NCBI GenBank assembly: GCA_902775345.1
Contig: CACYLW010000004.1
Coordinates: forward strand, 1-64,000
Length of the DNA: 64,000 bases
DNA from: an uncultured Eubacteriales bacterium
GTDB lineage: Bacteria; Bacillota; Clostridia; Peptostreptococcales; Anaerovoracaceae
Reading direction: 5' to 3'
In this document: positions 3,586 through 44,958 of the stretch, one piece after another
How the letters are laid out: each line of letters begins with the position of its first letter
Position numbering within the stretch: the stretch's first letter is position 1
Program-made: the position numbers and the translations under genes
The notes under the pieces: model-generated
The model's database searches: none
What the model saw: the letters and a program-made list of their open reading frames with translations, nothing else
What the model was told of the DNA's origin: nothing

Positions 3586-4667
3586 GCTGCCGCTTTTATC
3601 TCCTTTTTACTGAATGCTTTGTTTATCAGCGTGATAATGAAGTCAGTCACCTTTTCGAACAGCAGTGCCATGACCATCGTTACCGCAAATACAACTATGA
3701 GGCTGATGTACTTGTGGCTCTCTACGCAGCCGAAGTGCGCCAGCAGCGTCATAGGTATCCTCTGTAAAATATATATGCTGAAAATATGCTTGCCGAACCA
3801 CTCAAGCAGCGGGTTGCATATGTTTACCTTCATTGTGACCATGATCAGCAGGGTCGTGAACATGAGAGCCCAGACCGTGTAGCCTTCTATGCCGAAGCTC
3901 CATCTCTTGAAGAACGAAACGACATATACTCCAAGCACGGCAGTCAGTACCAGCAGATAAGTGATATCGCTCTTCATCACGATCCTGTCTATCTGCTTTC
4001 TGGCTTCCGACCAGAGCGCTCCGAAAGGAAGTATGATGATCGTATTGTATGTATATCCCGGCCTGTCGGCTTTCATGAGCGTGAACACGAAGGCAACGGT
4101 AAAAATGAACATCAGGATCAGGCCTGCGGTCCTTCCGTGTTTTGAAAAAACTGCTCTTCCGAGTTTGAAAGCCGCGTACATCAGCAGGTATTCGACCAGC
4201 ATCGCGAAAATATACCAGTTGGAGTTGCCTACGGTACCCCATCCCGTAAGCGCCAGCAGGAAGTTGCGCAGAGGGAAGACGGTCCCTATCAAGGCGTTCA
4301 TGATCCAGAAGAGGACCACCGCAAAATCGAATCTCAGCAGCAGCTGCCAGAACTTGACAGGGAGCTTGCTCACATAAGACCCTTCCGTCCTGCGTATGGC
4401 TTCCATCATGCCATAGCCGGAATAGAACCAGAATGTCGCCACGACCAGCTGGTTAAGATGCTCACGCAGAACCAGATAAGGTTCGTCGTATACGCCTCCG
4501 AATGCGGCGTACTGCGCGTAGTGGCTGAACACTACAAGGATCACGAAGATGCCGTTCACCGCCACGGTGTTTCTTTTGTTGAGGTAATTATCGTTGAACT
4601 CACCGCCGCCGCTGAAGTTCAGTCCGTTGAATATGATCAACAGTAATATGATCAGAAAAAATAACAT
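3582..4667 (-). CDS. Acyltransferase 3 (OafA-like) membrane acyltransferase
   Basis: This 361-residue polytopic membrane protein has about ten hydrophobic segments. Near the N-terminus it carries KRNTVAVNGIFVILVVFSHY, which matches the first conserved block of acyltransferase family 3, with the conserved histidine kept (FSHY). The family moves acetyl or other acyl groups across the membrane onto polysaccharides or lipids. Its position between the polymerase-like gene and a soluble LbH acyltransferase suggests O-acyl decoration of the polymer made by this locus. It overlaps the next gene by 4 nt. Specificity cannot be read from the sequence. Confidence 0.8.
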   Translation of the reverse strand: MLFFLIILLLIIFNGLNFSGGGEFNDNYLNKRNTVAVNGIFVILVVFSHYAQYAAFGGVYDEPYLVLREHLNQLVVATFWFYSGYGMMEAIRRTEGSYVSKLPVKFWQLLLRFDFAVVLFWIMNALIGTVFPLRNFLLALTGWGTVGNSNWYIFAMLVEYLLMYAAFKLGRAVFSKHGRTAGLILMFIFTVAFVFTLMKADRPGYTYNTIIILPFGALWSEARKQIDRIVMKSDITYLLVLTAVLGVYVVSFFKRWSFGIEGYTVWALMFTTLLIMVTMKVNICNPLLEWFGKHIFSIYILQRIPMTLLAHFGCVESHKYISLIVVFAVTMVMALLFEKVTDFIITLINKAFSKKEIKAAA

Positions 4668-27650: not shown

Positions 27651-30422
27651 CTACCACGTGCCCATATAACTCCAGTTGTTGATATCGTAAATATTGTCGT
27701 GAACGTTGAACCATTCAGCCTCGGCGTACTGACTGCCGTTGTTCGAGGTTATGTCCCACTTCATTGAATACAGAAGGTTGAGATCGACCGGTTTCTGCTG
27801 ATATGTCGTGAGCTCATTGCCCGTGAACGGGTTCTTCGGGCGGTCAACGATTCCTTCAGCTGCAAGCGCAGGCACATCGGCGTTCGTCGCCATACGGTCA
27901 TCCGTTGTAAAGCCCTTCGCACCGAAGTCCTTCACCAGCAGGACGCAGTCAAACGCCATTATGTCTTTAAAGGTGTCTTTGCCTTCCTTGTTTTCGTAGT
28001 ACAGCTTGTAGGCGTCGTTCGTCTTGCTCTCAAAGAAGTCCTGGCCGTGGTCTGACACGATGATGATCCTTGTGTTGTCGTATACGCCTTCCTTGCGCAG
28101 GTAGTCCATCCACTTGGCAAGTTCCAGCATCGCAGCCATGTTCGACTGGTAATGTACGGCAGTCATCGCGTCAGGCATGAGCATCTCGTTTCCGTCGTCA
28201 TCGGTGCGGACAGGATGCTTCCTGTCAAACTCACTGTTGTCCACTTCAAGAGCCGGCTCATATTCAGGCTCCTGAAGCAGCATGGCTTCATGAGTGGTGT
28301 CATTGCTCATCATGAAGAACGTGCCCTTATCCGATCCGCTCACATCCGTTATTTCAGGAAGGTGATCGAGGAAGGCATACGCCTCCATGAAGGTCTCGCG
28401 GTAGCCGCTTGACACGGACATGCCGCTGCGCGCCTGCGGGAAGAGTGTACTGCCCTCCCACTGCGCGTTGTAATTGCCGTGATCGTATAAAGTCGGCTGA
28501 AGGACAGCCGGCGCTATCTTGAACAGGCCGTAACAGAAGAAGTTGCGGTTCCTGATCGCCTTTGTCATCTCGGTCTGCGGCCTGTATCCGTACTGTTCAA
28601 GCGAAATGTCCCTGTCGGACAGGTAGCAGTTCCAGTCCGGATGGTCCTTGAAGACGCGCAAGTCAGGTATCCATGAATATCCCGCGTATGTCGGCTCGCA
28701 TATGGTTATGTCAAACCCCTCCTTGTCGAAAAGTTCAGGCATGACCTTAAGGGCCTCATTATGCTTTTCAGCGAGGCTGTCCTCTTTACGCTCATTCATG
28801 TTTTCAGGAGTGTAGTCGTACCCTCCGTAAAGGGCCGGGGATCCCGAGTTTGTCTTGCTGCCGAACGAGACGGAATTGGAATAGAAGGTGAATCCATCGA
28901 AGCTTTTCTTCAGTTCCGGCCTTTCATGCATGATATACGGGATAAGATGTCCTATCTGACGGTCCATCATTATCACTACCACGTTCTGCCCGTTCTTACT
29001 CAGCTTTATCGAAGGCTCGTTTTCGGTCGCCGCTTCAATTACTGGCATGGCCTTTGAGAGGCTCCCGCGTATCTGGTTTATGTTCATGCCTGACATCACG
29101 ACGAGCGCAAGACACATCGCGATCGAAACGATCTTCACGATCGCCAGCTTTTTCATGAAGATAAAAACTATCACCAGAGCTGCCGCAACAAGGACCGCCG
29201 CGTTGAGCAGGACGCTCTTCATGCCTATCGACGGCGTATCGTCAAAGACGAGCGTGCTCGAGAAGTTTCCGTATGTTTTGCCGAAGAACATATAGTCAAC
29301 GGCAGCAGCGGCTGCCAGCACAAGCATGAGCATACTGAATATCTGCTTGCCCTCTTTGCTCGCGAGACGGTAGAAGATGCCGAACCAGATGAAGAACGTG
29401 CCGAATGCTATCGTAAGAGCGCTTACTATGTACCAGTAAGGCGAGTAGTAGTTCGTTACGCTCAGGAATTCCTCGGTCGATGCTCCGATGACTGAAGACG
29501 GTATGAGCAATCCTGTCAGCAGTGTCAGGAACGCCGAAGAAGCATAGAACACCTTCGCGGCGTCGGCGTCATCAACACTCCTGAGCTTCAGCTGCCTGTT
29601 TCCCTTGATAAGCGGGATCTGCAGGCACAGAAGTCCTGCTATCACGATGGCCTGTGCCCTTGTCGAAGGCATCGGATGCACGAATATCACGATCACCAGC
29701 AGCACGGCTCCGGTCACGGATGCCAGTATCTTAAGAACTTTGTCCGGATGCGGGATCTTATAGAAGATGTTCTTGATGAGCGAGAACAGATTGTTCAGCG
29801 TCCAGTAGAACACGAGCCCCGCCGGCGATTTATACAGGAACACGAGGAAGATGGCCGCTATGCCGTACATCTGCACCTTGCTCTTGAGCGGGAATCCTTT
29901 CATGTAAATAGCCGCGCTTATCACGTTGATGAGCGTCATGAGTATCGGCAGCAGGTTGAGCGTCACCGATCCGATGCTGATAAGAGCGTCCGGCGCTCCC
30001 AGGTCTGTGATCGGCCCGAACGATACACCGCGCAGAGACTCAAGTCCCGAAAGGAACCTGTACGCTGCGATAAAGAAAGGTATCTCAAGCAGCAGGGAGA
30101 TGGATCCCTTGAGGGTATCCGTAGGCTTGTAGTTGTTCTCCCTGTAGAAAGCCTGCAGCATCATGAAGCGTTCGTCGCCCTTGAACGTCTTTTTTATGTG
30201 TTTGATCCACGGCGCGAGAGCGTTCTCCCTGTCGCGTTCCTCTGCCTGCACAGCATCGGCCCTGCGGTAGAGCGGAAGCACCAGGAAGTTCATCGCCAGG
30301 CTCAGCATTATTATGGCATACGCCGGATTGCTGACATGCCTGTCGGCCAGTTCGAAGACTACCTCAAAGAAGAGTTCGAGCGGGCCTATCAGTATTCTGT
30401 AAATGATCGAACCTATGCTCAT
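27651..30422 (-). CDS. YidC/Oxa1-like domain fused to extracytoplasmic alkaline-phosphatase/LtaS-type domain
   Basis: This is a 923-residue membrane protein. Residues 1 to about 230 follow the YidC/Oxa1 pattern: helices around 33-52, 108-125, 150-173 and 186-220, with LPLYRRADAVQ after the first conserved helix, LLLEIPFFIAAYRFLSG, and KSPAGLVFYWTLNNLFSL at the end. Residues 230-450 add about six more helices. Residues 475-900 are an alkaline-phosphatase-superfamily domain: NVVVIMMDRQ, SKTNSGSPALYGG around the nucleophile position, and IIIVSDHGQDFF. Such domains act outside the cell on phosphodiesters or sulfates, for example in LtaS and phosphoethanolamine transferases. The arginine of YidC insertases five residues before the LPL proline is Asn45 here, so normal insertase function is doubtful. 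It overlaps the preceding TagF-like gene by 4 nt and probably modifies or makes the same polymer. Confidence 0.82.
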   Translation of the reverse strand: MSIGSIIYRILIGPLELFFEVVFELADRHVSNPAYAIIMLSLAMNFLVLPLYRRADAVQAEERDRENALAPWIKHIKKTFKGDERFMMLQAFYRENNYKPTDTLKGSISLLLEIPFFIAAYRFLSGLESLRGVSFGPITDLGAPDALISIGSVTLNLLPILMTLINVISAAIYMKGFPLKSKVQMYGIAAIFLVFLYKSPAGLVFYWTLNNLFSLIKNIFYKIPHPDKVLKILASVTGAVLLVIVIFVHPMPSTRAQAIVIAGLLCLQIPLIKGNRQLKLRSVDDADAAKVFYASSAFLTLLTGLLIPSSVIGASTEEFLSVTNYYSPYWYIVSALTIAFGTFFIWFGIFYRLASKEGKQIFSMLMLVLAAAAAVDYMFFGKTYGNFSSTLVFDDTPSIGMKSVLLNAAVLVAAALVIVFIFMKKLAIVKIVSIAMCLALVVMSGMNINQIRGSLSKAMPVIEAATENEPSIKLSKNGQNVVVIMMDRQIGHLIPYIMHERPELKKSFDGFTFYSNSVSFGSKTNSGSPALYGGYDYTPENMNERKEDSLAEKHNEALKVMPELFDKEGFDITICEPTYAGYSWIPDLRVFKDHPDWNCYLSDRDISLEQYGYRPQTEMTKAIRNRNFFCYGLFKIAPAVLQPTLYDHGNYNAQWEGSTLFPQARSGMSVSSGYRETFMEAYAFLDHLPEITDVSGSDKGTFFMMSNDTTHEAMLLQEPEYEPALEVDNSEFDRKHPVRTDDDGNEMLMPDAMTAVHYQSNMAAMLELAKWMDYLRKEGVYDNTRIIIVSDHGQDFFESKTNDAYKLYYENKEGKDTFKDIMAFDCVLLVKDFGAKGFTTDDRMATNADVPALAAEGIVDRPKNPFTGNELTTYQQKPVDLNLLYSMKWDITSNNGSQYAEAEWFNVHDNIYDINNWSYMGTW

Positions 30423-31666
30423 TCAGTCTTCTCCGTCTCTGCCTCACTTTGCAGCGAGGCGTGTTTATTTATCAGATAGTCGGTTACGCGTACTGCCCCT
30501 TCTCCCATATACGCCCATGTCTCTTCTCTGGCTTCCCTGCGCCCCTGCTCGAATTCCGAGTCGTTGAGGCATTTGTCTATCAGGTCCCCTATATTATCCA
30601 GATTGTCTTCGGTCAGTTTGAGACCGAGTTTAGGCAGGACCCTGAAGGTCCACGGCTCTTCTTCAAGCCAGCACGCGTCGTAAGGCGAAGCGTCATACTG
30701 CACGTCCGTGTAGATGAGCGGCTTGTCGAAGACCAGGCTGAAGTCGAACATGACTCCCGAAAAATCGGAGATCATTATGTCCGACCGTCTCAGGACTTCA
30801 AAATTATCGTTGTCCCTGTTCCATTCCAGACGGTCGCTTTCAGGATACTTGTCCATCAGCGAGTCCATCAGTTCCTTTTCACTGGTGAACGACTGCGGAT
30901 GAGGACGGATAACTATTCTGTACGGTGTCTTCAGCAGTTCATCTATAATCTTTCCGCCGAATTTACTGAGTATCGCGCTCTGTCCCCATGAAGGAGCAAG
31001 CAGCACGACAGGCGTGTCGTTGGTAACACGGCCCTCTTCGGCAAGGCGGGCTCTCATCGTGTCGAGGAAAGTCAGTCCCGTCTTCTGTATCTCTTTCGGC
31101 GGCAGTTTTCTTACCTTTTCAAGCGCGCGTATCTGTTCTTCATGATAATCTCCCGATGTCAGTATCGCATCATAGAAGTCTATGCCGAACATCCTGTACA
31201 TGGTCAGGTCGCTTGCCGCGTGAGGCATGTGAACGTAGTACTTTACGTATTTCGACCTCTTCCAGTAGAGGACGTCCAGGCTCGGAGTAGTCGAAAGCAC
31301 TATGTCCGCGTGGAGGGTGTTGAGTCTGGCGAAGGCCTTGTTTCCCTCTCCGATGAATTCGCATTTGACATGCTCGTACGGCTTCTGAAGAGCCGGATCA
31401 TCCGGAGATGCCGTCATATAAATAAGAGGGATCCCTCTTTTCTCAAATTCATCGCAGACCGGTTCAAACACGTTCCAGTAGCGCTTATGGTCTGAAAAGA
31501 TCGCGAAATCCGGATTGTCGTCGAGTTTTCCGGCTTTTCCGCTGCTCATCAAAAATCTCGCCTTTACGGCGACATCTTTAGCTTTATAGACTCCTGCACT
31601 CAGCAGGCCTATCAATATTGTGAACAACATGCTTCCGGTTCCCGGATCAATGTATGGTACTGCCAT
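30419..31666 (-). CDS. CDP-glycerol glycerophosphotransferase-like protein with N-terminal membrane anchor
   Basis: This 415-residue protein starts with YIDPGTGSMLFTILIGLLSA, a membrane anchor of a kind seen in many Clostridial envelope proteins. The rest has the layout of CDP-glycerol glycerophosphotransferases: YYVHMPHAASD where the family has its WHG block, LLAPSWGQSAIL, IRPHPQSF, and MISDFSGVMFDFS in place of ITDYSS. It likely transfers a polyol phosphate, or is a divergent GT-B enzyme. It is the first gene of a two-gene unit with the YidC-fusion protein (4-nt overlap). Its ATG has a strong AGGAGGGG site and an extended -10 promoter upstream. Confidence 0.78.
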   Translation of the reverse strand: MAVPYIDPGTGSMLFTILIGLLSAGVYKAKDVAVKARFLMSSGKAGKLDDNPDFAIFSDHKRYWNVFEPVCDEFEKRGIPLIYMTASPDDPALQKPYEHVKCEFIGEGNKAFARLNTLHADIVLSTTPSLDVLYWKRSKYVKYYVHMPHAASDLTMYRMFGIDFYDAILTSGDYHEEQIRALEKVRKLPPKEIQKTGLTFLDTMRARLAEEGRVTNDTPVVLLAPSWGQSAILSKFGGKIIDELLKTPYRIVIRPHPQSFTSEKELMDSLMDKYPESDRLEWNRDNDNFEVLRRSDIMISDFSGVMFDFSLVFDKPLIYTDVQYDASPYDACWLEEEPWTFRVLPKLGLKLTEDNLDNIGDLIDKCLNDSEFEQGRREAREETWAYMGEGAVRVTDYLINKHASLQSEAETEKTE

Positions 31667-31721: not shown

Positions 31722-31753
31722 ACAGCCCGGAACTCTTACGGCTCCGGGCCTGT
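31722..31753 (-). terminator. Intrinsic terminator of the MttB/LicC operon
   Basis: GCCCGGA (31725-31731) pairs with TCCGGGC (31743-31749). The stem is extended by ACA/TGT with a one-base bulge. On the minus strand it is followed by TTTAATTTG. It lies 25-55 nt after the stop of the UroD-like gene at 31777. Confidence 0.75.
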
Positions 31754-31776: not shown

Positions 31777-32796
31777 TCAGTTCGCAACGCGTTCGTTATG
31801 CTCTCTGCAGGCTCTGTAATAAGCTTCTATGTTTTCGTGTTTTATTGAAGGCGCAAGGTCGCAGCCCGACGAAAGCACAAAATGAGGATAGTCCTTCATG
31901 TCCTCGAGCAGCTGAGCCGTAGTCTCATATACTGATTCCGCCGTACCAAGGAAGAACGCTGACGACGGATCGACATTGCCGAAAACGAGAACATCCGCCG
32001 GGATCTGCGGCAGTATGTCTTTCATGTCAACGCCGTTTCCGAAGTGGAACCCCTTGCAGCCTGTAGCATACATGCTCTCGACCGATTTTGTCACCTTTCC
32101 GCAGTCGTGAAGGATCAGGAAGAAGTAATCATCCTGAACAGCGTCAGCGATCTTCTTCACATAGTCCGATGAAAACGCCGCGCATGCCCTCGGCGAGAGA
32201 AGTCCCGCAGTAGGTTCCGCGATCAGGATGCCGTTTGCCCCCGCGGCCTTGTAATCGAGCGCTCTGCTGATCAGCCAGTCCGTGCACTTCTCAAGAAGCT
32301 CGTGCAGCGCTGCCTTTTCTTTCAGCGTCATCAGCATGCACTTATTTATGTCAAGAAGGTTCGCAGCCAGGGAGAACGGTCCCAGCATCCCTCCGAACAC
32401 AGGCCTGTCCGTTATGATCTTCTCTGCTTCGACGCACGCCTGCGCGAAGATGTCGACACGTCCGCTGTGGATATCCGGCACCTCAAGAGCTTCGATGTCA
32501 GCCGCGTTCTCAAGGATATGGCCGACAATATTAGGAGCCTGTTTTTCACTGAAGTTGACTTCTATGCCGAACGCCTCGGCGTCTACAGTAAGATCCATGC
32601 CTGTGATCGCCGCTATGGTATCGGGATATTTGTCGATGACGGCCTTCATCGTCCTTGCGATGCACTCAGGCGAATTGACCGATTCCGGAACGGTCATCCC
32701 TATGTCCTTAAGTACCGGGAAGTACAGCACCGGAAGGTTTTTAACATCTGGAGCAGCAATTATGTCTTCTGCCCACTTCTGCATATTGATTTTCAT
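31777..32796 (-). CDS. UroD/MtaA-family cobamide-dependent methyltransferase
   Basis: This 339-residue protein belongs to the uroporphyrinogen-decarboxylase superfamily branch of MtaA/MtbA/CmuA. The zinc ligands of that branch are visible: His and Cys in ILHDCGK and the second Cys in LSSGCDLAPS. MtaA-type enzymes take a methyl group from a methyl-corrinoid protein and pass it to a thiol or other acceptor. Coenzyme M is the acceptor in methanogens, while bacteria use other acceptors. It lies 15 nt after the MttB-family gene and belongs to the same transcript, followed by a terminator. It probably takes the methyl group from the corrinoid protein encoded at 34974. The final acceptor cannot be read from the sequence. 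Confidence 0.8.
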   Translation of the reverse strand: MKINMQKWAEDIIAAPDVKNLPVLYFPVLKDIGMTVPESVNSPECIARTMKAVIDKYPDTIAAITGMDLTVDAEAFGIEVNFSEKQAPNIVGHILENAADIEALEVPDIHSGRVDIFAQACVEAEKIITDRPVFGGMLGPFSLAANLLDINKCMLMTLKEKAALHELLEKCTDWLISRALDYKAAGANGILIAEPTAGLLSPRACAAFSSDYVKKIADAVQDDYFFLILHDCGKVTKSVESMYATGCKGFHFGNGVDMKDILPQIPADVLVFGNVDPSSAFFLGTAESVYETTAQLLEDMKDYPHFVLSSGCDLAPSIKHENIEAYYRACREHNERVAN

Positions 32797-32811
32797 GAAC
32801 GTGCCTCCTTT

Positions 32812-34239
32812 TTACTCTTCACAGCTTTCAATATAGCTTCGCAGGTCTTTCGCGACCGCCGGATCGAGGAGAGGCTTCGCGCTTTCTATGATCTCTTTCG
32901 CCTTCTTCTCAGCCCTCTTTTCAATTTCAGGCTCATCCGATTTCTGCCATACTTCATAGCTGTTCCAGTCAGAGATGGACGGCTGCCATCCCTTCCTGTA
33001 ATGCTTCAGAGTCGATTTATGTGTAAGGAAGCTTCCGCCGTGTCCGACGTTCTTTATGAGATCCATGCTGAGAGTCTCTTCATCGAAGCGGAGCGCATCC
33101 AGTATTCTTCTTACTCTCGCTATGACTTCATCATCAATGATGGTCTTTTCGAACGAGATCGTCATGAGGTTCTCGAGCGAACCCGCGGACTGGCTGGTGA
33201 CATCGACGTCCATGAGGCCTGTAAGAAGAAGGCTCTGCATGGTCTCGAATCCCGCCTGATAATCCACGAGTTTCGAACTCGTAACACCTGTCTGTGCCCT
33301 TGCCGGGAGGCCATAGAAGTCCTTGTACATCTGAACGGCGCCTGCCAGCATCAGAGCCGAATCCGGGCTCGCGCATTCCCATGTGGCAAGTCTCATGTTT
33401 CCGTATGTGAGCGATGCTGACGGAAGGACCGGAACGCCCGGATTGACGCACTGGGCAAGACACAGTCCTGCCAGCGATTCTGTATTTGCGAGTACTATCG
33501 TTCCCATGAGATGAATCGGTCCGGTAATGCCCGACATCGGCGCGGACACCAGCGCGACAGGCTGGTTGAACTGCGCGAATTCCATGATCGATTCGCATGA
33601 GAACTGACTGAATACCAGAGGGCTCTCCGGCGTGACGATACTCCATGTCAGATAATGATTCCTTACGAACTCCTCCCCGAATACGATCTCGTACATGTGG
33701 AGTTCCCTGCGCTTATCGGCGCCGCTGACATAGTCCATAGGCGCCAGCCAAGGCTTGTCGGTATACTGCATGGTCTCGTACAGACAATGCAGTCCTCTTG
33801 TCTGGAGAGGTACATCATCAGGAGAAAGCGGCTGATAACCGGTCATATTGATGTTTTTGCAGGCCTGATAGATTTTCTGCAGATCTGAAAACATCTGTAT
33901 CGTAGCCGAACTTGAACGCTTGTCGTCCGCGTCCTTCACGAATACCTCTCCGCCGGCAGGATGGATGATCATGTTGTCTCCTCCGATGACGACGGCTTTG
34001 GCCGGATCCACAGCATCTACGGTAAATGAAGACGGTGTGTTCTTCAGGCATTCCGCGACCAGCGCTTCAGGAATATATACTATCTCGCCATCGACTTTAG
34101 CGCCTTTAGCCGCAAGGGCATTCCTGGCCTCCTCTGATTTATACACGACTCCTGTCGTGCTCAGAAGCTCCAGCGATGCCTCATGGATTTTCTGCATCTG
34201 TTCATCTGAAAAGATCTTCGGTTTAGCATACCAGTTCAT
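32812..34239 (-). CDS. MttB-superfamily (trimethylamine/quaternary amine) methyltransferase, non-pyrrolysine
   Basis: This 475-residue protein is similar throughout to the trimethylamine methyltransferase family, including NPGVPVLPSASLT and RAQTGVTSSKLVDYQAGFETM. The reading frame has no internal stop, so it lacks the pyrrolysine of true MttB. Members without pyrrolysine (for example glycine-betaine, proline-betaine, carnitine and butyrobetaine enzymes) demethylate quaternary amines onto a corrinoid protein. Its ATG overlaps the stop of the LicC-like gene by 4 nt. This coupling suggests that a choline-related compound, rather than only betaine, may be the substrate, but this is inference. Confidence 0.87.
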   Translation of the reverse strand: MNWYAKPKIFSDEQMQKIHEASLELLSTTGVVYKSEEARNALAAKGAKVDGEIVYIPEALVAECLKNTPSSFTVDAVDPAKAVVIGGDNMIIHPAGGEVFVKDADDKRSSSATIQMFSDLQKIYQACKNINMTGYQPLSPDDVPLQTRGLHCLYETMQYTDKPWLAPMDYVSGADKRRELHMYEIVFGEEFVRNHYLTWSIVTPESPLVFSQFSCESIMEFAQFNQPVALVSAPMSGITGPIHLMGTIVLANTESLAGLCLAQCVNPGVPVLPSASLTYGNMRLATWECASPDSALMLAGAVQMYKDFYGLPARAQTGVTSSKLVDYQAGFETMQSLLLTGLMDVDVTSQSAGSLENLMTISFEKTIIDDEVIARVRRILDALRFDEETLSMDLIKNVGHGGSFLTHKSTLKHYRKGWQPSISDWNSYEVWQKSDEPEIEKRAEKKAKEIIESAKPLLDPAVAKDLRSYIESCEE

Positions 34240-34958
34240 CGAACGTCCTCCTTTTTATATCTCAGGTAGCCCGGGTCTATTTCCACAAGCTCATCAAAAG
34301 AATCAATTTCAACGATATCACCGGCTTTGATCTCTCTTACCCCAAGGTCAAAGCGGTCGGCGTATACCTCAAGCGCGAGCTGATCCCAGTACACATCCCA
34401 GTCTTTGATATCCTCTATCTGCTGACGCACGAGCTCTGCCAGAAGTTCGCCGTCTTTCTGTGTCCACATGGATATGCCCCAGAGGCGGTATGCCTCGGGA
34501 CCTCCGCCTATGTCGCATGATATGATGCGGCCGTTTCTGACCCTGATTGCCCATTCAGGCGCGTAATCCAGCCAGTTCGCGCAGTATCCGGACTTTTCGA
34601 CGGACCTGCTGAATATGGCAGGCTCGGATATCATGAGGTCTCCTTCAAGCACGAATGATCCCGGCAGATAATCCCTTGCCGCGTAAAGAGATGTGATGTT
34701 GTTTCCGCGCTGATAATTGACGTTCTCAACAACAGTGATTTCCGGATCATCTTTATACGCTTCATGGAACTGTTCTTTTTTATAACCCGCTACGATGATT
34801 ATCTCGTGTATGCCGTTCTGCTTCAGCGCGTTTATTTCGGTATCTATCAGTCTTGTCCCGTTGACGCGGACAAGAGGTTTCGGTGTTTCAAGGGAAACAG
34901 GTCTGAGGCGCTTCCCTTCTCCTGCGGCAACTATGATTGCCCGTTTTAACTCTTCCAA
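34236..34958 (-). CDS. LicC-like nucleotidyltransferase (probable phosphocholine cytidylyltransferase)
   Basis: This 240-residue protein has the nucleotidyltransferase signature AIIVAAGEGKRLRPVSLETP, then PLVRVNGTRLIDTEI and the metal-binding aspartate in LEGDLMI. It is most like LicC-type CTP:phosphocholine cytidylyltransferases, which make CDP-choline. The start codon is TTG at 34958, well supported by AAAGGAG 7 nt before it. The gene sits between the corrinoid-protein gene (15 nt upstream) and the MttB-family gene (4-nt overlap), which is an odd place for a choline-activation enzyme. A second LicC domain is in the fusion at 37202. Another phospho-amine alcohol could be its substrate. Confidence 0.78.
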   Translation of the reverse strand: MEELKRAIIVAAGEGKRLRPVSLETPKPLVRVNGTRLIDTEINALKQNGIHEIIIVAGYKKEQFHEAYKDDPEITVVENVNYQRGNNITSLYAARDYLPGSFVLEGDLMISEPAIFSRSVEKSGYCANWLDYAPEWAIRVRNGRIISCDIGGGPEAYRLWGISMWTQKDGELLAELVRQQIEDIKDWDVYWDQLALEVYADRFDLGVREIKAGDIVEIDSFDELVEIDPGYLRYKKEDVR

Positions 34959-34973
34959 GAATAGCTCCTTTAC

Positions 34974-35624
34974 TTACTCTTCTATCAGTTTTTTAGCTAC
35001 AGCGCAGCAGTCAAGCGCGTCCTCTGAATACGCGTCCGCGCCTATGTTCTTAGCCCACTCCGCTGTGACCGGAGCTCCGCCGACCATGGTCTTGATCTTT
35101 CCCTTGAGTCCGCGTGCTGCCAGAATGTCCTCTATCTCCTGCTGTACAGGCATGGTTGTGGTAAGCAGCGCGCTAGAAGCGATTATGTCAGCGTTTACTT
35201 CCACGGCCTTATCAACGAAGGCTTCAGCTGCCACTTCCTTTCCGAGGTCGTACACTTCAAAACCGTTGGCCTTGAGCATGGATACGCAGATGCCTTTGCC
35301 TATGTCGTGTACATCTCCCTCGACCGTACCGATCACGATCCTTCCGATCACATCTGTAGTCTGAGCGTTTTCAGCCATCTCTTCATCAACGGCTTCCGAT
35401 ACTATCGACATGACTTCCGCAGCAAAGATAAGTTCCGGAAGGAAGACGTCTCCGCTAGCGAACAGATCTCCGAGTTCGGTAAGCCCTTTGGCAAATCCTT
35501 CCTGCAGCATCTCTACTGCCGAGATCCCTTCCTGTTTTCCTTCAGCCAGGGCTTCCACGGCCAGGTCTTCATCGATCTCGAGTATGGAGTCGACAGCCTT
35601 TTGCATTATTGATTCTCTTGACAT
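34974..35624 (-). CDS. Corrinoid (B12-binding) methyl-carrier protein, MttC/MtbC-like
   Basis: The 216-residue protein has an N-terminal helical cap (about 1-90) and a cobalamin-binding domain with VEGDVHDIGK (the DxHxxG motif whose His ligates cobalt) and ASSALLTTTM. It carries the methyl group between the MttB-type and MtaA-type enzymes encoded downstream. It begins inside the end of the BCCT transporter gene (19-nt overlap), with AGGAGACC as ribosome site. No RamA-type reductive activase for the corrinoid is present in the window; it must be elsewhere. Confidence 0.9.
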   Translation of the reverse strand: MSRESIMQKAVDSILEIDEDLAVEALAEGKQEGISAVEMLQEGFAKGLTELGDLFASGDVFLPELIFAAEVMSIVSEAVDEEMAENAQTTDVIGRIVIGTVEGDVHDIGKGICVSMLKANGFEVYDLGKEVAAEAFVDKAVEVNADIIASSALLTTTMPVQQEIEDILAARGLKGKIKTMVGGAPVTAEWAKNIGADAYSEDALDCCAVAKKLIEE

Positions 35625-37168
35625 ATATGGTCTCCTGTTTTTATTTTATTTTCTTTTTCTTTCAGATAGTCCTTCGCGTCCTTAAAGAAGCTCCAGACCA
35701 TTATTACCATTATTATACCTATAGGGAAGGCTGAAATTATGCTGACCGACTGAATATTGTTCATCGAGCTTTCCGAGAAAACAAGTCCCATCGGCAGTAC
35801 TATGAGCAGCAGGCACCACAGCAGTTCGATCGCGCGGTGAGGCATTTCGTCTTCACCGAGATTGTAGTAGCTGTAGCACGAAGCGGTGTAGGCGATCGAG
35901 TCGAACGAGGTCGCGTAGAACGTGACCATGGTTACGATCACCAGAACGAGGATGAACTTGCTGAACGGCATCGTGTCGATAATGTTCAGAATCAGCTCGT
36001 ACAGATCGCCGGACTTTTCGTATACAGCGATGAAGTCCGCTCCTCCGGCTGCCTGAAGACCGAGCGAGTAATTGCCCAGCACCACGAAGCTCACTATCGT
36101 TGAGCCGACGCCGAAGATATATCCGCCTCCTATTACCTGGCGGATGGTCCTTCCTCTTGAAATATTACCGATGAAGAACGGTGCGGCAATGCACCATACC
36201 ATCCAGTAAGCCCAGTAGTATATCGTCCAGTCCTGAGGGAAGTTGTTCTCCCTCACCGGATCCACATAGGTAGACAGCCCGATGAAGTTCTGCACCATCT
36301 TTCCGAATGACTGGAATCCGTTTTCAAGTATGAATCTTCCTTGTCCGCTCGTAAACAGCACGATCAGCAGCAGTCCGAAGAACAGATATATGCATGTCTT
36401 GGCCAGAATGCCGATGCCCTTGAATCCGTGAAGGACAGCGTATGTATATACCGCGCATGTGATCAGCAGGATGATGATGGTCACGAAGCGGCGGCTGATC
36501 TCAATGTGGAACAGCTTCATGATGATGCTTGCCATGAGCGGCGTGGCAACGCTGAATGTCGTAGCCGTGCCCGCAAGCAGAGCGAACAGCGCGAACAGGT
36601 CTATTATCCTTCCTGCCAGCCCGTCCGAATGCTTTCCGATTACCGGACGGCATGCCTCCGAGTATCTCTGTCTGCTGCGTTTTCTTACATGCAGCATGAA
36701 GCCGAAAGCCACGGCAAGCACAAGATAGAAAGCCCACGGGATGAAGCTCCAGTGGAAGAGAGGGAACACTCCCGCCCATTCTATGATGGATCCGAGCTCC
36801 GCAATATGCGGATTCGTGGCATACATGACCCACTCGGCAAACGAGTAGAACAGTATGTCTGCCGCCAGTCCGCAGGTGAACATCATGCAACCCCAGGTGA
36901 AGAATGAGTATTTCGGTTTCTCGAACGGCTCGCCGAGGACGATATCTCCGCACTTTGAAAGAGCCATCACGATCGAAACTATCAGAGCTCCGAGTCCCAG
37001 AGCCAGGTAATAGAGTCCAACTGTATCTCCGAAGAAGAACCTTATCTGTCCGATCACCTCATTCGACTGATCCGGAAAAACAAAGAGCATCCCTGCGAGT
37101 ACTACGATCAGTATGAACGGAACAAGCGTCACCATCCAGTCGATCCTGCTTTTCTCCAGTTTATTCAT
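35606..37168 (-). CDS. BCCT-family betaine/choline/carnitine transporter
   Basis: This 520-residue protein has 12 membrane helices and the BCCT signature WTIYYWAYWMVWCIAAPFF, followed by IGNISRGRTIRQVIGGG. The family imports glycine betaine, choline or carnitine with Na+ or H+, or exchanges them for their products. Within this operon it probably supplies the quaternary amine that is both demethylated (MttB route) and phosphorylated and activated (LicA/LicC route). It lacks a long osmosensing C-terminal domain and ends in a short basic tail that overlaps the corrinoid gene. Confidence 0.9.
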   Translation of the reverse strand: MNKLEKSRIDWMVTLVPFILIVVLAGMLFVFPDQSNEVIGQIRFFFGDTVGLYYLALGLGALIVSIVMALSKCGDIVLGEPFEKPKYSFFTWGCMMFTCGLAADILFYSFAEWVMYATNPHIAELGSIIEWAGVFPLFHWSFIPWAFYLVLAVAFGFMLHVRKRSRQRYSEACRPVIGKHSDGLAGRIIDLFALFALLAGTATTFSVATPLMASIIMKLFHIEISRRFVTIIILLITCAVYTYAVLHGFKGIGILAKTCIYLFFGLLLIVLFTSGQGRFILENGFQSFGKMVQNFIGLSTYVDPVRENNFPQDWTIYYWAYWMVWCIAAPFFIGNISRGRTIRQVIGGGYIFGVGSTIVSFVVLGNYSLGLQAAGGADFIAVYEKSGDLYELILNIIDTMPFSKFILVLVIVTMVTFYATSFDSIAYTASCYSYYNLGEDEMPHRAIELLWCLLLIVLPMGLVFSESSMNNIQSVSIISAFPIGIIMVIMVWSFFKDAKDYLKEKENKIKTGDHICQENQ

Positions 37169-37201
37169 CTATATATATACCTCTGTTTTTTCTGCTTGCA
37201 G

Positions 37202-38962
37202 TCAGTTCAGTTCCGCGATGAGCTCCTTTGCGTATCTGCAGTAGTCTTTTGCGTATCTGTACTGCTTCAGGCTGTATTCCCCGAACTCCACTCCGAGATT
37301 GTGCTTGTATTCGCACCAGTTTGACCAGAGCAGTCCGCACGCGGCAACATAGCAATAGATCTTTGCCCGGACGGCTCTGTCGCATCCGCCTTCAAAATAG
37401 ATATCTATGAGCCTGTCAACGCACTCCCTGTCATACATGGCGTAAATGGCAAACATCGCGATATCCACATGCGGATCCTCCATCCCGGCGTATTCCCAGT
37501 CCGTAAGCTGAAGATTCTCGCCGTTTCCATCGTCGTAGAACAGAAAGTTATCGGGTACGGCATCTATGTGTGTAAGACAGAAGTCCTTCTCCATGCCGTC
37601 GATGATCTCCTTCAGTCCCATAACATTGGCCTTTGTCTTCTGGTAGTCCTTGTACATGGATGGGCTGTTTCCCCGGAGTTCCTCATAATATTCGATATGT
37701 CCGAAGAGATCAAAGCTGTGCTCCACCTCAAGGTGCATTGCGTGGAAGTCTTTCAGCTTTTTCATGCAGCGGGCAAGATCGCCGGTGTCAAATGGATCGC
37801 AGTTCCGCACGCCTTCCAGATAGCGGGTTATCTTGTATCCGTTTTCCGGATTTATATATACAGGGTCATCGCACAGGCCGCGGCCGCTGATAGCTCTGAA
37901 CACTGCTGCCTCCTGGGCACGGTTGACCAGCTGGTCGGAGCCTTCTCCCGGTACACGCATTATGTACTTCTCGCCATTGACGGAAAACAGGAACGATCTG
38001 TTAGTCATTCCCTTCTTGAGGACGGATATGTCGGTTATGTCATCCGGTGTTACTCCGAAGACACCGGCTATAACGTCCAATTCCTTTGATTTCAGGTGAT
38101 TTGACTCGCCGTCCAGCTCCCTTAACTGCTCATAAGTATTTATCTCCACAGCATCGGAAGCGCTGACCACACGTGCCGGTATCATCATTTTGCCGCCCCT
38201 GTACAGAGCGAACTCCCAGAAATCATCATCATGCGCGCCGCTTGCGTCAGCCTCTTTTATACTATTAATAAGTGTTCCCGCGTCTTCCCGGGAAATATAT
38301 GACAGGCCGATCATTGCGTTTCCTCCGGAGCGCTCCGGTACTTTCACCAACTCTCCCTTCCGGTTGACGCGCACTTCGGAATCCTCATCAGCCGAATCCG
38401 ATACCATGTACCAGGAATACATCTCATGTCCGCTGAACGGGTTGCTTTCGCAGCGGATGTCGGAAGGAATTATATAGGTGTTTCCTATCCTGTCCGCAGC
38501 GAGAGAAAGAGTGTGCAGATTGTTTTTTCCTGCGTATTCCTTATTGAATACCAGCTCAACTCCGTAAGCGTCGATGAGATAGTCGAAGGTCTCCTTCATG
38601 AAGCCTACGACCACGGTTATGTCATATATACCGGCATCATGCAGCTGCCCGATCACCCTTTCTATCAGAGGTTCTCCGTTTACTTCAAGGAACGCCTTCG
38701 GCGTTGCCAGATTGATCGGAACCATGCGCATGCCAAAACCGGCGGCAAGTATGATCGCATTCTTCGGAACACAGCTGTCGTATTCCTTCCTAGCTTTTTC
38801 CGTAAGCTGTTGATCCTCATCCAGATATCCTTCGTAAACAAGAGCTTTCATGCTCTTGTTGACAGCACCCAGGCTGTATCCTGACTTCTCTGAAAGGATG
38901 CGCTGATTTACATATTTATGTTCAAGGATTGTTCTTAAAACATCCCTATCTTGCTTGTTCAT
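37202..38962 (-). CDS. HTH - LicC cytidylyltransferase - LicA choline kinase triple fusion
   Basis: The 586-residue protein has three parts. Residues 1-65 are a winged helix-turn-helix (LSEKSGYSLGAVNKSMKAL). Residues 68 to about 290 are a LicC-like nucleotidyltransferase (AIILAAGFGMRMVPINLATP, FLEVNGEPLIERVI). Residues about 295-586 are a LicA/choline-kinase-type phosphotransferase with LTHIDAVPDNFL (catalytic HxDxxxxN) and LTDWEYAG (Mg-binding Asp). It should phosphorylate choline and convert phosphocholine to CDP-choline. The HTH may let it regulate its own operon. It is the first gene of the operon and is divergent from a secreted CHAP protein. No LicD phosphocholine transferase is in the window. 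Confidence 0.88.
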   Translation of the reverse strand: MNKQDRDVLRTILEHKYVNQRILSEKSGYSLGAVNKSMKALVYEGYLDEDQQLTEKARKEYDSCVPKNAIILAAGFGMRMVPINLATPKAFLEVNGEPLIERVIGQLHDAGIYDITVVVGFMKETFDYLIDAYGVELVFNKEYAGKNNLHTLSLAADRIGNTYIIPSDIRCESNPFSGHEMYSWYMVSDSADEDSEVRVNRKGELVKVPERSGGNAMIGLSYISREDAGTLINSIKEADASGAHDDDFWEFALYRGGKMMIPARVVSASDAVEINTYEQLRELDGESNHLKSKELDVIAGVFGVTPDDITDISVLKKGMTNRSFLFSVNGEKYIMRVPGEGSDQLVNRAQEAAVFRAISGRGLCDDPVYINPENGYKITRYLEGVRNCDPFDTGDLARCMKKLKDFHAMHLEVEHSFDLFGHIEYYEELRGNSPSMYKDYQKTKANVMGLKEIIDGMEKDFCLTHIDAVPDNFLFYDDGNGENLQLTDWEYAGMEDPHVDIAMFAIYAMYDRECVDRLIDIYFEGGCDRAVRAKIYCYVAACGLLWSNWCEYKHNLGVEFGEYSLKQYRYAKDYCRYAKELIAELN

Positions 38963-39006: not shown

Positions 39007-39189
39007 CAGGCCCCGTATTAAATCCAGTAAAGCTTTGCAGTGATCGCATTTTCTCTAATTTTGTATAGATACGTGGATTCCTTTTTTCCGCTCTTTTATT
39101 ATTAGCATGAAATAACAGCGGACCGGCGCGTGAGCATCCTGCCGGTATCGCTGCTTTGCAATCTTTATTGCATTAGAAAGAGTGGAAAA

Positions 39190-42425: not shown

Positions 42426-43490
42426 ATGAAGACCTTACTTACAGGTGGTGCGGGATATATAGGATCGCACACGGCAGTGGCTATGCTCGAAGCAGGGCAC
42501 GAAGTCGCTGTTGTGGATAATTACGTAAACAGCTCAGCCGAGGCGATCGCTCGTGTAGAGAAGATCACCGGAAAGCCTGTCGCTCTTTATGAGGCGGATG
42601 TGGCAGACAAGGACCGCATGATGGAGATACTGAAAGCAGAAATGCCGGACTGCATCATACATTTTGCGGGGCTCAAGGCTGTCGGAGAATCCGTAGCAAT
42701 GCCTGTTGAATATTACCGCAACAACATTGACACTACGCTGACACTTCTCGAATGCATGAGAGAGCTGGGACTTGCCAATATAGTCTTCTCCAGCTCAGCT
42801 ACAGTTTACGGCGAGGACAATGTGCCTCCGTTCACCGAGAACGCGCCTAAGGGCATGTGCACAAATCCATATGGCTGGACCAAGTGGATGCAGGAGCAGA
42901 TGCTGACAGACGCGCAGTTCTCGAGCGAAGCGGCTGACGGAAGCGCAAATACGGCAAATGGCTGGAAGGTGCCGCTGTCCGTGGTGCTGCTGAGATACTT
43001 CAACCCGGTCGGAGCACACGAGAGCGGGCTGATCGGCGAAGATCCGCAGGGGATCCCGAACAACCTTATGCCTTATATCTCTCAGGTGGCGGTCGGAAGG
43101 CGCGACCATCTGACCGTATTCGGAAACGACTACGATACTCCTGACGGCACATGCCGCAGGGACTACATACACGTGATGGATCTGGCCGAAGGTCATGTCA
43201 AAGCCGCGGAATACGCGGTGAAGAACAAGGGCACGGAAGTGTTCAACCTGGGAACGGGCTCGCCTTACAGCGTGCTCGAGATGGTCGAAGCTTTCGGACG
43301 CGCGTGCGGGCACGCTGTAGCCTATGAAATAGGCGCCAGACGAGCCGGCGACGTGCAGGACAGCTGGGCTGACGCCTCCAGGGCTAAGGCCGTGCTCGGC
43401 TGGCAGGCGAGCCGCGGCATAGACGAGATCTGCCGCGATGCCTGGAACTGGCAGAGCCATAATCCGCAGGGATACGATACCAATAAATAA
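42426..43490 (+). CDS. galE: UDP-glucose 4-epimerase
   Basis: This protein of about 354 residues is an extended SDR with LLTGGAGYIGSHTAVAMLEAG (NAD-binding GxxGxxG), SSSATVYGED, the catalytic YxxxK as YGWTK, and the GalE-type RYFNPVGAHESGLIGEDPQG. It interconverts UDP-glucose and UDP-galactose, and possibly the GlcNAc/GalNAc pair. I chose the ATG at 42426, with AAGGAG upstream. It may supply sugar nucleotides for the envelope polymers of this region. Confidence 0.92.
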   Translation: MKTLLTGGAGYIGSHTAVAMLEAGHEVAVVDNYVNSSAEAIARVEKITGKPVALYEADVADKDRMMEILKAEMPDCIIHFAGLKAVGESVAMPVEYYRNNIDTTLTLLECMRELGLANIVFSSSATVYGEDNVPPFTENAPKGMCTNPYGWTKWMQEQMLTDAQFSSEAADGSANTANGWKVPLSVVLLRYFNPVGAHESGLIGEDPQGIPNNLMPYISQVAVGRRDHLTVFGNDYDTPDGTCRRDYIHVMDLAEGHVKAAEYAVKNKGTEVFNLGTGSPYSVLEMVEAFGRACGHAVAYEIGARRAGDVQDSWADASRAKAVLGWQASRGIDEICRDAWNWQSHNPQGYDTNK

Positions 43491-43494
43491 ACAT

Positions 43495-44958
43495 ATGAAG
43501 AAACATTTAAAGCGAATCATTATATCAGCGATTCTTGTCTTCGCGCTTTCATGCAGCATAGCGCTGGCAGAAGACGAAGAAACGATGCAGGTTCAGGCTC
43601 CGGCGGAGCCTGTTTCGGTTGAGCTGTCGGAAAACACAGAAGCGCCTCCCGTCACCGATGAGCCTGAAGCGGTTCCCGATGAGCAGCTTCCTTCTTCTGA
43701 CACCCTGACAGTTGAAGATACATCAGACGGGACCGGAGAAGTCCAGCAGACGGACGGCTCAGATACAGCAGAGCCTGTAGCAGCTGTACCGGAAAACACG
43801 GCAGCAGAAACACCGGCAGACGAACCTGCTGCAGAGGATCCTTCCGTTCCGGCATCGGATGGAGAGTCCGGATCCGACCCCGGTGATGATCCGGAACCGG
43901 TAGTCTATGAAGCGAAAATAATCGAACAGGATGACGGCCTTTACTACATAGACCCTGAGACCGGTGAGATCAGAACAGAAGCCGGCTTCATAACTTATAA
44001 CGGTAAGCGTTACTACATCACGGAAGGCGGCCGAATTGCCGTCGGCACGGAAGTAACTCTTGAAGACGGAACGTATCACGCCGGCAAAACGGGCGCGATC
44101 CTGACGGGTGTCCATAAGTGGGACGGCGTACGCTACTACTCCGGCACAACAAGCGGCAGACTGAAATCAGTCCGCGGCTTCGTCATGTACAATGGCAAAA
44201 AATATCATGTCTACTCTACCGGAAAGATAGCTGTAAGCAAGTTCTTCGTATTCAAGGACAGAAAGTATATTGCCGGTTCGACCGGCGCCATACTGAAGGG
44301 TGTAAACAAGTGGAAGAGCCATTATTACTATTCGAACGAAAAAAGCGGTATTATCAGAGTCGCTCAGGGCCTCGCCAAATGGGACGGAAAATACTATTTC
44401 GTTGAAAAGGGCGGCAGGATCCGCGTGAACCAGCCTTTCTTCTACAAAAGCAAGCCTTATGTTTCTCTGTCTAAAGGCTGGTGCAGGCTTCTTACCAACA
44501 TCAACACCGGACTAGTAACAAAAATTGCCCGCAGGCAGGTCGGCATCATGACCGGAGTAAAGTACTGGCAATGGTATTACGGCACAAGGTTCGTCGACAC
44601 CGATCGTACTCCGTGGTGCGGAGCCTTCATAGCCTGGTGCTTCCACGCTGCCGGTCAGTACAGCAGAGTGTCGGGGATCCGCAAATACGGTAACCTCGGC
44701 TATGTTCCAAGCTATTCGAGATACGCGAGCGCGAACGGCAAATGGATAAACCGCAGCACCGCCAAGGGAGGCGACATAATCGTCTTCGGCAATGACATGC
44801 ATGTTGGTATCGTAGAATATGTCTGCAACGGATATGTATACACCATAGAAGGCAATGCCGGTCCGACAGCAGCAGTTGGCTGCGGGAAGCCGGGAGCAGT
44901 CATACGCAGACTTCTCAAACTGAATGACACAAGAATAAAAGGCATCCTGCACGTCTGA
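43495..44958 (+). CDS. Secreted CHAP hydrolase with choline-binding-like repeats
   Basis: The protein of about 487 residues has a signal peptide (KHLKRIIISAILVFALSC, cleavage after ALA). A long Glu/Pro/Ala-rich low-complexity spacer follows, to about residue 135. About eight 20-residue repeats come next (GFVMYNGKKYHVYSTGKIAV and KWDGVRYYSG, KWKSHYYYS, KWDGKYYFV types). These resemble the CW-binding/choline-binding repeats with their aromatic pairs. The C-terminal CHAP domain has TPWCGAFIAWCF (catalytic Cys) and DMHVGIVEY (His). It should hydrolyse peptidoglycan while the repeats hold it on the wall. Given the phosphocholine genes nearby, choline recognition is plausible but not proved. It starts 4 nt after galE, so it may share that transcript. 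Confidence 0.83.
   Translation: MKKHLKRIIISAILVFALSCSIALAEDEETMQVQAPAEPVSVELSENTEAPPVTDEPEAVPDEQLPSSDTLTVEDTSDGTGEVQQTDGSDTAEPVAAVPENTAAETPADEPAAEDPSVPASDGESGSDPGDDPEPVVYEAKIIEQDDGLYYIDPETGEIRTEAGFITYNGKRYYITEGGRIAVGTEVTLEDGTYHAGKTGAILTGVHKWDGVRYYSGTTSGRLKSVRGFVMYNGKKYHVYSTGKIAVSKFFVFKDRKYIAGSTGAILKGVNKWKSHYYYSNEKSGIIRVAQGLAKWDGKYYFVEKGGRIRVNQPFFYKSKPYVSLSKGWCRLLTNINTGLVTKIARRQVGIMTGVKYWQWYYGTRFVDTDRTPWCGAFIAWCFHAAGQYSRVSGIRKYGNLGYVPSYSRYASANGKWINRSTAKGGDIIVFGNDMHVGIVEYVCNGYVYTIEGNAGPTAAVGCGKPGAVIRRLLKLNDTRIKGILHV

Follow-up and report, generated by a model that had tools for sequence, protein, structure and literature searches.

A lic-type operon joined to an MttB-family demethylase in an uncultured Anaerovoracaceae bacterium: possible editing of a choline-derived surface head group

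Why would a bacterium keep genes for phosphocholine activation and genes for corrinoid-dependent demethylation of quaternary amines in one operon? The question is raised by a stretch of 64,000 nucleotides (nt) from an uncultured Eubacteriales bacterium of the family Anaerovoracaceae (assembly GCA_902775345.1, contig CACYLW010000004.1, positions 1 to 64,000), hereafter the window. An initial annotation of this DNA had described a tightly spaced minus-strand operon of six genes at 31777-38962. All six are present as stated, their families match in profile searches, and successive genes are spaced by 33, -19, 15, -4 and 15 nt, which confirms both the composition and the 4-nt overlap reported between the LicC-like gene and mttB. 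The features are as follows, with loci and genomes designated below by L and G numbers.

37202..38962, minus strand: fusion of a winged helix-turn-helix (wHTH), a LicC-like domain (LicC') and a LicA choline kinase, 586 amino acids; matches HTH_24, NTP_transf_3/NTP_transferase and Choline_kinase
35606..37168, minus strand: BCCT-family transporter, 520 amino acids; presumed choline importer
34974..35624, minus strand: methyltransferase corrinoid protein, 216 amino acids; matches B12-binding_2 and B12-binding, with the cobalamin motif DxHxxG present as DVHDIG
34236..34958, minus strand: LicC2, a predicted free-standing CTP:phospho-amino-alcohol cytidylyltransferase, 240 amino acids; LicC-like, matches NTP_transferase
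32812..34239, minus strand: MttB-superfamily methyltransferase without pyrrolysine, 475 amino acids; matches MTTB at E=2e-105 and overlaps licC2 by 4 nt
31777..32796, minus strand: predicted methylcorrinoid:acceptor methyltransferase of the URO-D superfamily (MtaA/CmuA-like), 339 amino acids; URO-D match, HxC...C zinc site
31724..31750, minus strand: terminator-like hairpin 3' of the operon, 10 pairs of which 7 are G-C, weak T tail; a pattern match only

Because this hairpin separates the URO-D gene from the next gene, the operon probably ends where the initial annotation had placed its end. The LicA domain of the fusion matches Choline_kinase at E=2.1e-16 and keeps the Brenner motif HxDxxxxN as HIDAVPDN, along with DWE, and LicC2 finds its best PDB match in 1jyk, a CTP:phosphocholine cytidylyltransferase (E=1.6e-27).

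Our best reading, put forward tentatively, is that an operon of the phosphorylcholine (ChoP) type gained a corrinoid demethylase and became a head-group-editing pathway, leading from choline through phosphocholine, N,N-dimethylaminoethanol phosphate (DMAE-P) and CDP-DMAE to a surface polymer, with salvage of the methyl group. Choline would be imported by the BCCT protein, as its family suggests, and converted to phosphocholine by the LicA domain, to which both family and motifs point. MttB would then transfer one N-methyl group from phosphocholine to the corrinoid protein, leaving DMAE-P, and the URO-D protein would hand the methyl group to an acceptor, in this genome probably homocysteine or another thiol rather than tetrahydrofolate (THF). 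LicC2, which carries Glu105, would activate DMAE-P to CDP-DMAE, a step suggested by this residue and by gene linkage. Finally, a neighbouring TagF/lipoteichoic acid (LTA)-like pair of proteins, or LicD in some relatives, might attach the head group to a wall or capsular polymer. We are slightly less assured of the fuller account, in which choline is imported, demethylated as phosphocholine and displayed as DMAE phosphate, the LicC pocket changed when the demethylase joined, and the methyl group enters a folate-free economy. Head-group editing had been among the hypotheses of the initial annotation; residue 105 of LicC2 adds an independent clue to it, at the level of sequence.

The first evidence comes from the kinship of MttB. 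A pyrrolysine-containing trimethylamine (TMA) methyltransferase was ruled out, as the gene has no in-frame stop or TAG and the protein scores 325.5 bits against the cut-off of 525 for NCBIfam TIGR02369. Of 148 related genomes, G025, from the same genus, is the only one to hold a close copy (86% identity), and the other matches reach 31-32% at best. Among 391 genomes of the class there were 11 matches at E<=1e-60, own genome included, the close ones being in G257 (77%), G162 (67%), G400 (66%) and G516 (52%). Eighteen loci came from a scan of GTDB contigs; four of them, L047, L048, L050 and L052, appear to be G025, G257, G162 and G400 again. The plasmid search returned 193 records, all below 60% identity, with the eight listed at 28.6-32.8%.

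We placed 37 MttBs in a tree: 10 from loci of the window's kind (lic-type), 8 of the kind found in Eubacterium callanderi (mth-type) and 19 others, leaving out the frame-broken L054, the duplicates L022 and L004, and the short L007. The lic-type proteins form one clade (100/98), the mth-type proteins another (100/99), and these are sisters, jointly set apart from the 19 other MttBs by a 100/100 branch. The mth-type clade takes in E. callanderi, whose copy is 51% identical to that of the window, and 'Candidatus Formimonas warabiya'. When diagnostic residues were defined as those fixed in the mth-type and present in at most 1 of the 19 other MttBs (n=46), 33 of them proved invariant and identical in the lic-type.

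This kinship matters because the chemistry of MthB has been published. The E. callanderi locus (L057) encodes a divergent kinase, MthB, an EamA-like protein, a Pterin_bind protein and a corrinoid protein, which is the published order of the mth genes of E. limosum, where MthB, MthC, MthA and MthK make up a phosphocholine:THF methyltransferase system (PMC12155760). MthB demethylates phosphocholine and is inactive on choline, glycerophosphocholine (GPC), phosphatidylcholine and those betaines that were tested, while MthK phosphorylates choline using ATP or DMAE-P (PMC12155760). The initial annotation, which knew of no described system of this composition, had overlooked this one. Because the lic-type MttBs are sisters of the MthB clade and keep 33 of its 46 diagnostic residues, phosphocholine is most likely the substrate of the window protein. 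The annotation had listed it among other candidates, and as the substrate of the sister enzyme it now stands out; CDP-choline, also listed, is very improbable for reasons given below.

The two systems are alike in having MttBs of sister clades, a corrinoid protein, a choline kinase encoded alongside, a transporter and a methyl-acceptor enzyme, but the parts differ. Where the MthB system has MthK, EamA and the Pterin_bind acceptor enzyme MthA, the window has the LicA-type kinase within its fusion, BCCT and the URO-D protein; LicC2 is added, the operon sits in a surface-polymer neighbourhood, and its genome has no match for FTHFS, MTHFR or Pterin_bind. In tblastn searches with the E. callanderi query, MthK was found at none of the ten lic-type loci, window included, versus six of the eight mth-type loci, and neither LicC nor LicA was found at any of the eight mth-type loci (three of which are shorter than 9 kb).

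The second evidence is linkage. The operon type occurs in some gut and rumen bacteria, and LicC2 lies directly 5' of MttB in all nine intact lic-type loci with upstream sequence (the window, L047-L053 and L055), at gaps of -4, -4, 17, 2, 25, 17, 17 and 17 nt in the eight loci measured. A BCCT gene stands beside MttB in 10 of 10 intact lic-type loci, the window and the truncated L056 counted, and the fusion gene was found in all eight whose sequence reaches that far (in part in L047). In the window, L047, L048 and L049, the operon itself includes the corrinoid and URO-D genes. L050, L052 and L053 carry a different pair (42-44%) upstream, plus two more genes, which encode a DUF2284 protein and a RACo-type activase in L050 and L052 and are matched to these by length and order alone in L053; upstream sequence in L055 and L056 is too short to judge this content. 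As the arrangement recurs in Lachnospiraceae, Monoglobus and other Clostridia, the linkage goes beyond chance. The check across genomes that the initial annotation had proposed thus finds the lic and MttB gene sets together across genera, and a metabolite shared by LicC and MttB, as it had suggested, is likely.

The third evidence lies in the substrate pocket of LicC2. In LicC, which acts on phosphocholine, the pocket holds Asp105 and Asp192, whereas Treponema denticola PntC, which acts on the primary amine aminoethylphosphonate (AEP), has Glu104 and Glu196, with Glu placed to hydrogen-bond the amine of the substrate (PMC6697681). In the numbering of Streptococcus pneumoniae LicC (Spn-LicC), all nine MttB-linked LicC2 proteins have Glu105 and Asp192, and all four unlinked ones (L103, L129, L130, L132) have Asp105 and Asp192. 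The LicC of L123, a ChoP-like locus in which choline-binding-repeat proteins and LicD are matched, likewise has Asp at both positions, as does Spn-LicC itself. Comparison of the nine linked with the four unlinked proteins over 231 columns leaves only two fixed differences, at 105 and 161; at 161 the linked proteins agree with Spn-LicC, so that 105 alone is where the linked group departs. LicC2 otherwise keeps Y92, W136, Y190, W191, D107, D192 and E216 of Spn-LicC, with E105 replacing D105. The combination Glu105/Asp192 would be expected to fit an amine of intermediate size that still bears an N-H, for example that of DMAE-P.

PntC is likewise a member of the LicC family, and in the structure described it has Glu at the position of LicC Asp105 (PMC6697681). 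LicC2 differs from it in keeping Asp192 and the aromatic box for choline, Glu at both positions occurring in none of the nine linked proteins, and in the linkage of its gene to a choline kinase and MttB and not to phosphonate genes. The phosphonate-linked LicC-like enzyme of L118 does have Glu at both 105 and 192.

Operons of the same make without MttB suggest how the system arose. A fusion-LicC2-BCCT set occurs in [Eubacterium] eligens (L129; fusion 60%, LicC2 41%, BCCT 67%), next to LicD on a plasmid of Lacticaseibacillus paracasei (L130), and on a scaffold from human faeces that is recorded as phage (L132); none of the three has a match for MttB, a corrinoid protein or URO-D in the locus sequence examined. 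In G041 (L103), LicA-LicC2-BCCT genes with neither a fused LicC domain nor MttB stand beside TagF- and YidC-LTA-like genes. Since the MttB-free operons share Asp105 with Spn-LicC, we infer the direction of change: MttB appears to have been added to a pre-existing choline-activation operon rather than lost from its relatives.

The chromosomal site itself can hold other lic operons. In G003, of the same genus, it is occupied by a different one (a fusion at 32%, LicA and EamA) without MttB, between TagF- and YidC-LTA-like genes (92 and 86%) on one side and homologues of the genes at 39130, 41160 and 42390 (65, 91 and 95%) on the other. As to mobile elements, the L. paracasei locus lies on pE1-2, typed as mobilizable, where LicD, a LicC'-LicA-type fusion, LicC2 and BCCT adjoin dTDP-rhamnose genes; it is possibly a transferable ChoP-type operon. 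A LicC2-type search of viral contigs gave 222 pattern stretches and no relative.

Where would the methyl group go? The URO-D protein resembles the methylcobamide:coenzyme M methyltransferases MtaA and MtbA in its HxC...C zinc site, and the PDB entry that it matches best is 4ay7, a methylcobalamin:coenzyme M methyltransferase. It differs from them in scoring too low for the MtaA, MtbA and MtaA/CmuA-subfamily cut-offs of NCBIfam. Own genome, which is 90.5% complete, has no match for FTHFS, Pterin_bind (PF00809) or MTHFR, and G025 and G003 have none for Pterin_bind or MTHFR. Acetogenic burning of the methyl group in own genome was therefore set aside, a miss being possible at this completeness, and with it the 'burn' branch of the switch between burning and displaying choline that the initial annotation had offered becomes unlikely. 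Own genome does have a RACo activase, and it has a homocysteine methyltransferase next to a URO-D-corrinoid fusion and CbiK. With this gene beside such a fusion, and with no methyl-THF genes matched, a thiol acceptor such as homocysteine is plausible.

That gene set lies at L098:4616-8429 (C3, about 215.6-219.4 kb), where a 586-amino-acid fusion of URO-D and corrinoid domains directly precedes homocysteine S-methyltransferase and CbiK; in a genome without a Pterin_bind or MTHFR match, it is a candidate folate-free methionine synthase. G025 (L100) has genes of like size and order, compared by these features. Folate-independent methionine synthases of another family have been published (PMC7857596).

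For the display of a head group, two genes downstream of the operon are candidates:

30419..31666, minus strand: TagF-like (Glyphos_transf) protein, 415 amino acids; candidate downstream polymer enzyme
27651..30422, minus strand: YidC-like plus sulfatase/LTA-synthase-like membrane protein, 923 amino acids; candidate polymer enzyme, its gene overlapping the TagF-like gene by 4 nt

Past this pair, the window continues into a polysaccharide region whose genes include Glyphos_transf, Wzy_C, Bac_transf and ATP-grasp members. TagF- and YidC-LTA-like genes adjoin the operon in the window, L048 and L049, and they adjoin MttB-free lic genes in G003 and G041. In G024 and G018 they lie about 7.5 kb from lic genes; four open reading frames stand between the lic genes and TagF in G024, and both of those scanned carry choline-binding repeats. 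L051 has two glycosyltransferase genes upstream of the operon. Among 47 proteins of the lic-type flanks, Glyphos_transf, 60KD_IMP and Sulfatase occur three times each, namely in the window, L048 and L049; among 54 proteins of the mth-type flanks, none of the three is found in the best 25 of 73 families, which include two EutH. L112 has two tandem homologues of the YidC plus sulfatase/LTA-like fusion.

A phosphonate-type cluster in G257 (L118:2-8237) encodes phosphoenolpyruvate (PEP) mutase, phosphonopyruvate decarboxylase, PhnW, the LicC-like enzyme with E105/E192, LicD, the second TagF-like protein of that genome and the end of a YidC-LTA-like protein, which suggests that the TagF/YidC-LTA pair goes with several CDP-activated head groups.

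With the classical Lic (ChoP) pathway, the window operon shares choline uptake, a choline kinase and a member of the CTP:phosphocholine cytidylyltransferase family, and an MttB-free sister operon stands beside LicD in L. paracasei. It differs in its added corrinoid demethylase, in Glu105 of LicC2, in the absence of a LicD match from own genome, and in having BCCT in place of the LicB/EamA permease, the G003 EamA protein having no match in the window. Of the 11 genomes tested for LicD (PF04991), G257, G162, G400, G001, G012 and G016 have it; own genome (G000), G025, G003, G005 and G516 do not. The G162 copy is some 9 kb away from the operon; those of G257 and G400 stand beside PEP mutase genes and may therefore serve phosphonates.

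Several observations weigh against head-group editing. All Glu105 LicC2 proteins fall in one clade (97/98); the substitution is thus one event on a single branch and could be neutral. Because LicC2 keeps the aromatic box and Asp192, it may still accept phosphocholine. A free LicC beside LicA and EamA genes without MttB (L102) has Ser105/Glu192, and in several fusion LicC domains Glu192 is paired with Ser, Val or Asn at position 105, so choline enzymes can solve the pocket otherwise and the residue code is not universal. With respect to the operon, L051 has no corrinoid or URO-D gene within its 11 kb, and L054, in a Clostridia genome record, has at 2896-4297 a frame-broken lic-type MttB without lic genes, which looks like a relic. 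As to the methyl group, own genome is 90.5% complete and its absences are not proof, and G257, G162 and G400, which carry the operon, have MTHFR and Pterin_bind proteins, so that a THF acceptor is possible there. As to display, the polymer role of the TagF/YidC-LTA pair is suggested by gene neighbourhood, a close TagF match was found in 5 of 60 genomes searched and one of these, G030, shows no lic genes within 19 kb of it, and own genome gave no LicD match. We therefore weighed head-group editing, which we rank first, against three other accounts, taken in order of falling probability.

The nearest of these, which we consider rather unlikely, is a branch point: the LicA product would be shared, LicC2 making CDP-choline for ChoP display and MttB demethylating the rest for methyl salvage, for example towards methionine, with DMAE-P recycled or exported. 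The MttB-free fusion-LicC2-BCCT set, accompanied in one case by LicD, could plausibly be a plain ChoP operon, LicC2 retains the aromatic box, D107, D192 and E216, and a genome that lacks a methyl-THF gene match and has a homocysteine methyltransferase beside a URO-D-corrinoid fusion would profit from methyl groups of non-THF origin. This account does not explain that the gene constantly next to MttB is LicC2 and not the corrinoid gene, nor does it explain the change at position 105 in the clade linked to MttB.

It seems less probable still that the operon serves methyl scavenging of the MthB kind with borrowed lic parts, LicA standing in for MthK (and perhaps recycling the phosphate of DMAE-P), BCCT for EamA and the URO-D protein for the THF methyltransferase, and with LicC2 a passenger or side valve and no surface display. 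Such an account draws on the relation of MttB to an enzyme of published chemistry (PMC12155760), on the missing LicD match in own genome, and on L050 and L052, where the added corrinoid, DUF2284, URO-D and RACo-type activase genes make a self-contained methyl-transfer set, with genes of like length and the same order in L053. The presence of LicC2 in nine of nine intact loci with upstream sequence speaks against it, as do the surface-polymer genes that adjoin the operon, TagF/LTA-like ones in own genome, L048 and L049 and two for glycosyltransferases in L051, set against mth-type flanks that show no TagF/LTA-like family among the best 25 of 73. Demethylation of CDP-choline itself, in the order LicA, LicC2, MttB and giving CDP-DMAE directly, would suit the position of licC2 directly 5' of mttB and is compatible with the main text of the MthB paper, which mentions neither CDP-choline nor LicC, but it is very improbable, as MthB rejects GPC and phosphatidylcholine, so that substituted phosphates seem not to fit (PMC12155760), 33 of 46 diagnostic MthB-type residues are kept, and no reason is given for Asp105Glu in LicC2.

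The operon also holds a second LicC-like unit, in the fusion. The initial annotation had counted two LicC-type units, and both are indeed of the LicC family, but they are not equivalent. In nine of nine fusions of the window clade, eight from BCCT loci and one (L102) adjoining an EamA gene, the LicC-like domain has lost Y92 and W136, with Y190 replaced by F, unlike the free LicC2, which retains all three; the fused domains of L129 and L130 share these changes. A long stem, with 1.58 changes per column, leads to the clade of window-type fused domains. Two equal LicC enzymes are thus ruled out, the fused domain having lost its choline box. A free LicC accompanies such fusions in 8 of 9 loci, the other, L101, having none in its 19 kb. 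Fusions of other clades, in L104 (two), L105, L112 and L121, keep both Y92 and W136, and no free LicC was found beside L104, L105 or L112. The L122 fusion lacks W136 and that of L131 lacks Y92; three rows were uninformative for the pocket, L127 and L116, whose aligned slice lies outside the N-terminal NTP-transferase domain, and the poorly aligned L123 fusion. The wHTH-LicC' part is probably a sensor or regulator fused to the kinase, for which NadR offers a comparison.

The link between a choline kinase and MttB is itself already known from MthBCAK. We have found no description of the lic-type variant in which LicC2 is the constant partner of MttB, of the sister operon that lacks MttB, or of the division between Glu105 and Asp105; in the open-licence PMC literature, among the matches listed, no title or start of an abstract describes a combination of MttB and LicC or a ChoP tag that has been demethylated. 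ChoP tags on microbes are recognised by C-reactive protein, natural anti-ChoP antibodies, choline-binding proteins and phage lysins. If head-group editing takes place, trimming one methyl group from the tag would be a new means to alter what hosts and phages see, the fate of choline in the gut, by a route that avoids TMA, would be tied to cell-surface chemistry, and a single LicC2 residue would predict substrate choice. Such a pathway also suggests that MttB enzymes may serve anabolic or decorative roles besides methylotrophic growth.

Three further loci in own genome deserve mention. A protein with a CHAP domain and Tyr-rich repeats that weakly resemble choline-binding repeats is encoded at 43438-44958 of the window; by BLAST it is 26% identical to a choline-binding protein of G024 (E=1e-7), and it has no Pfam choline-binding match at E up to 10. 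On C3 (L097:4019-12302), a RACo activase gene lies amid three URO-D genes, followed by a gene for an NlpA-type lipoprotein, and this cluster resembles an MtaA-like (mlp) cluster. Within the polysaccharide locus of the window, positions 11171-13630 encode an 819-amino-acid protein with two ATP-grasp stretches.

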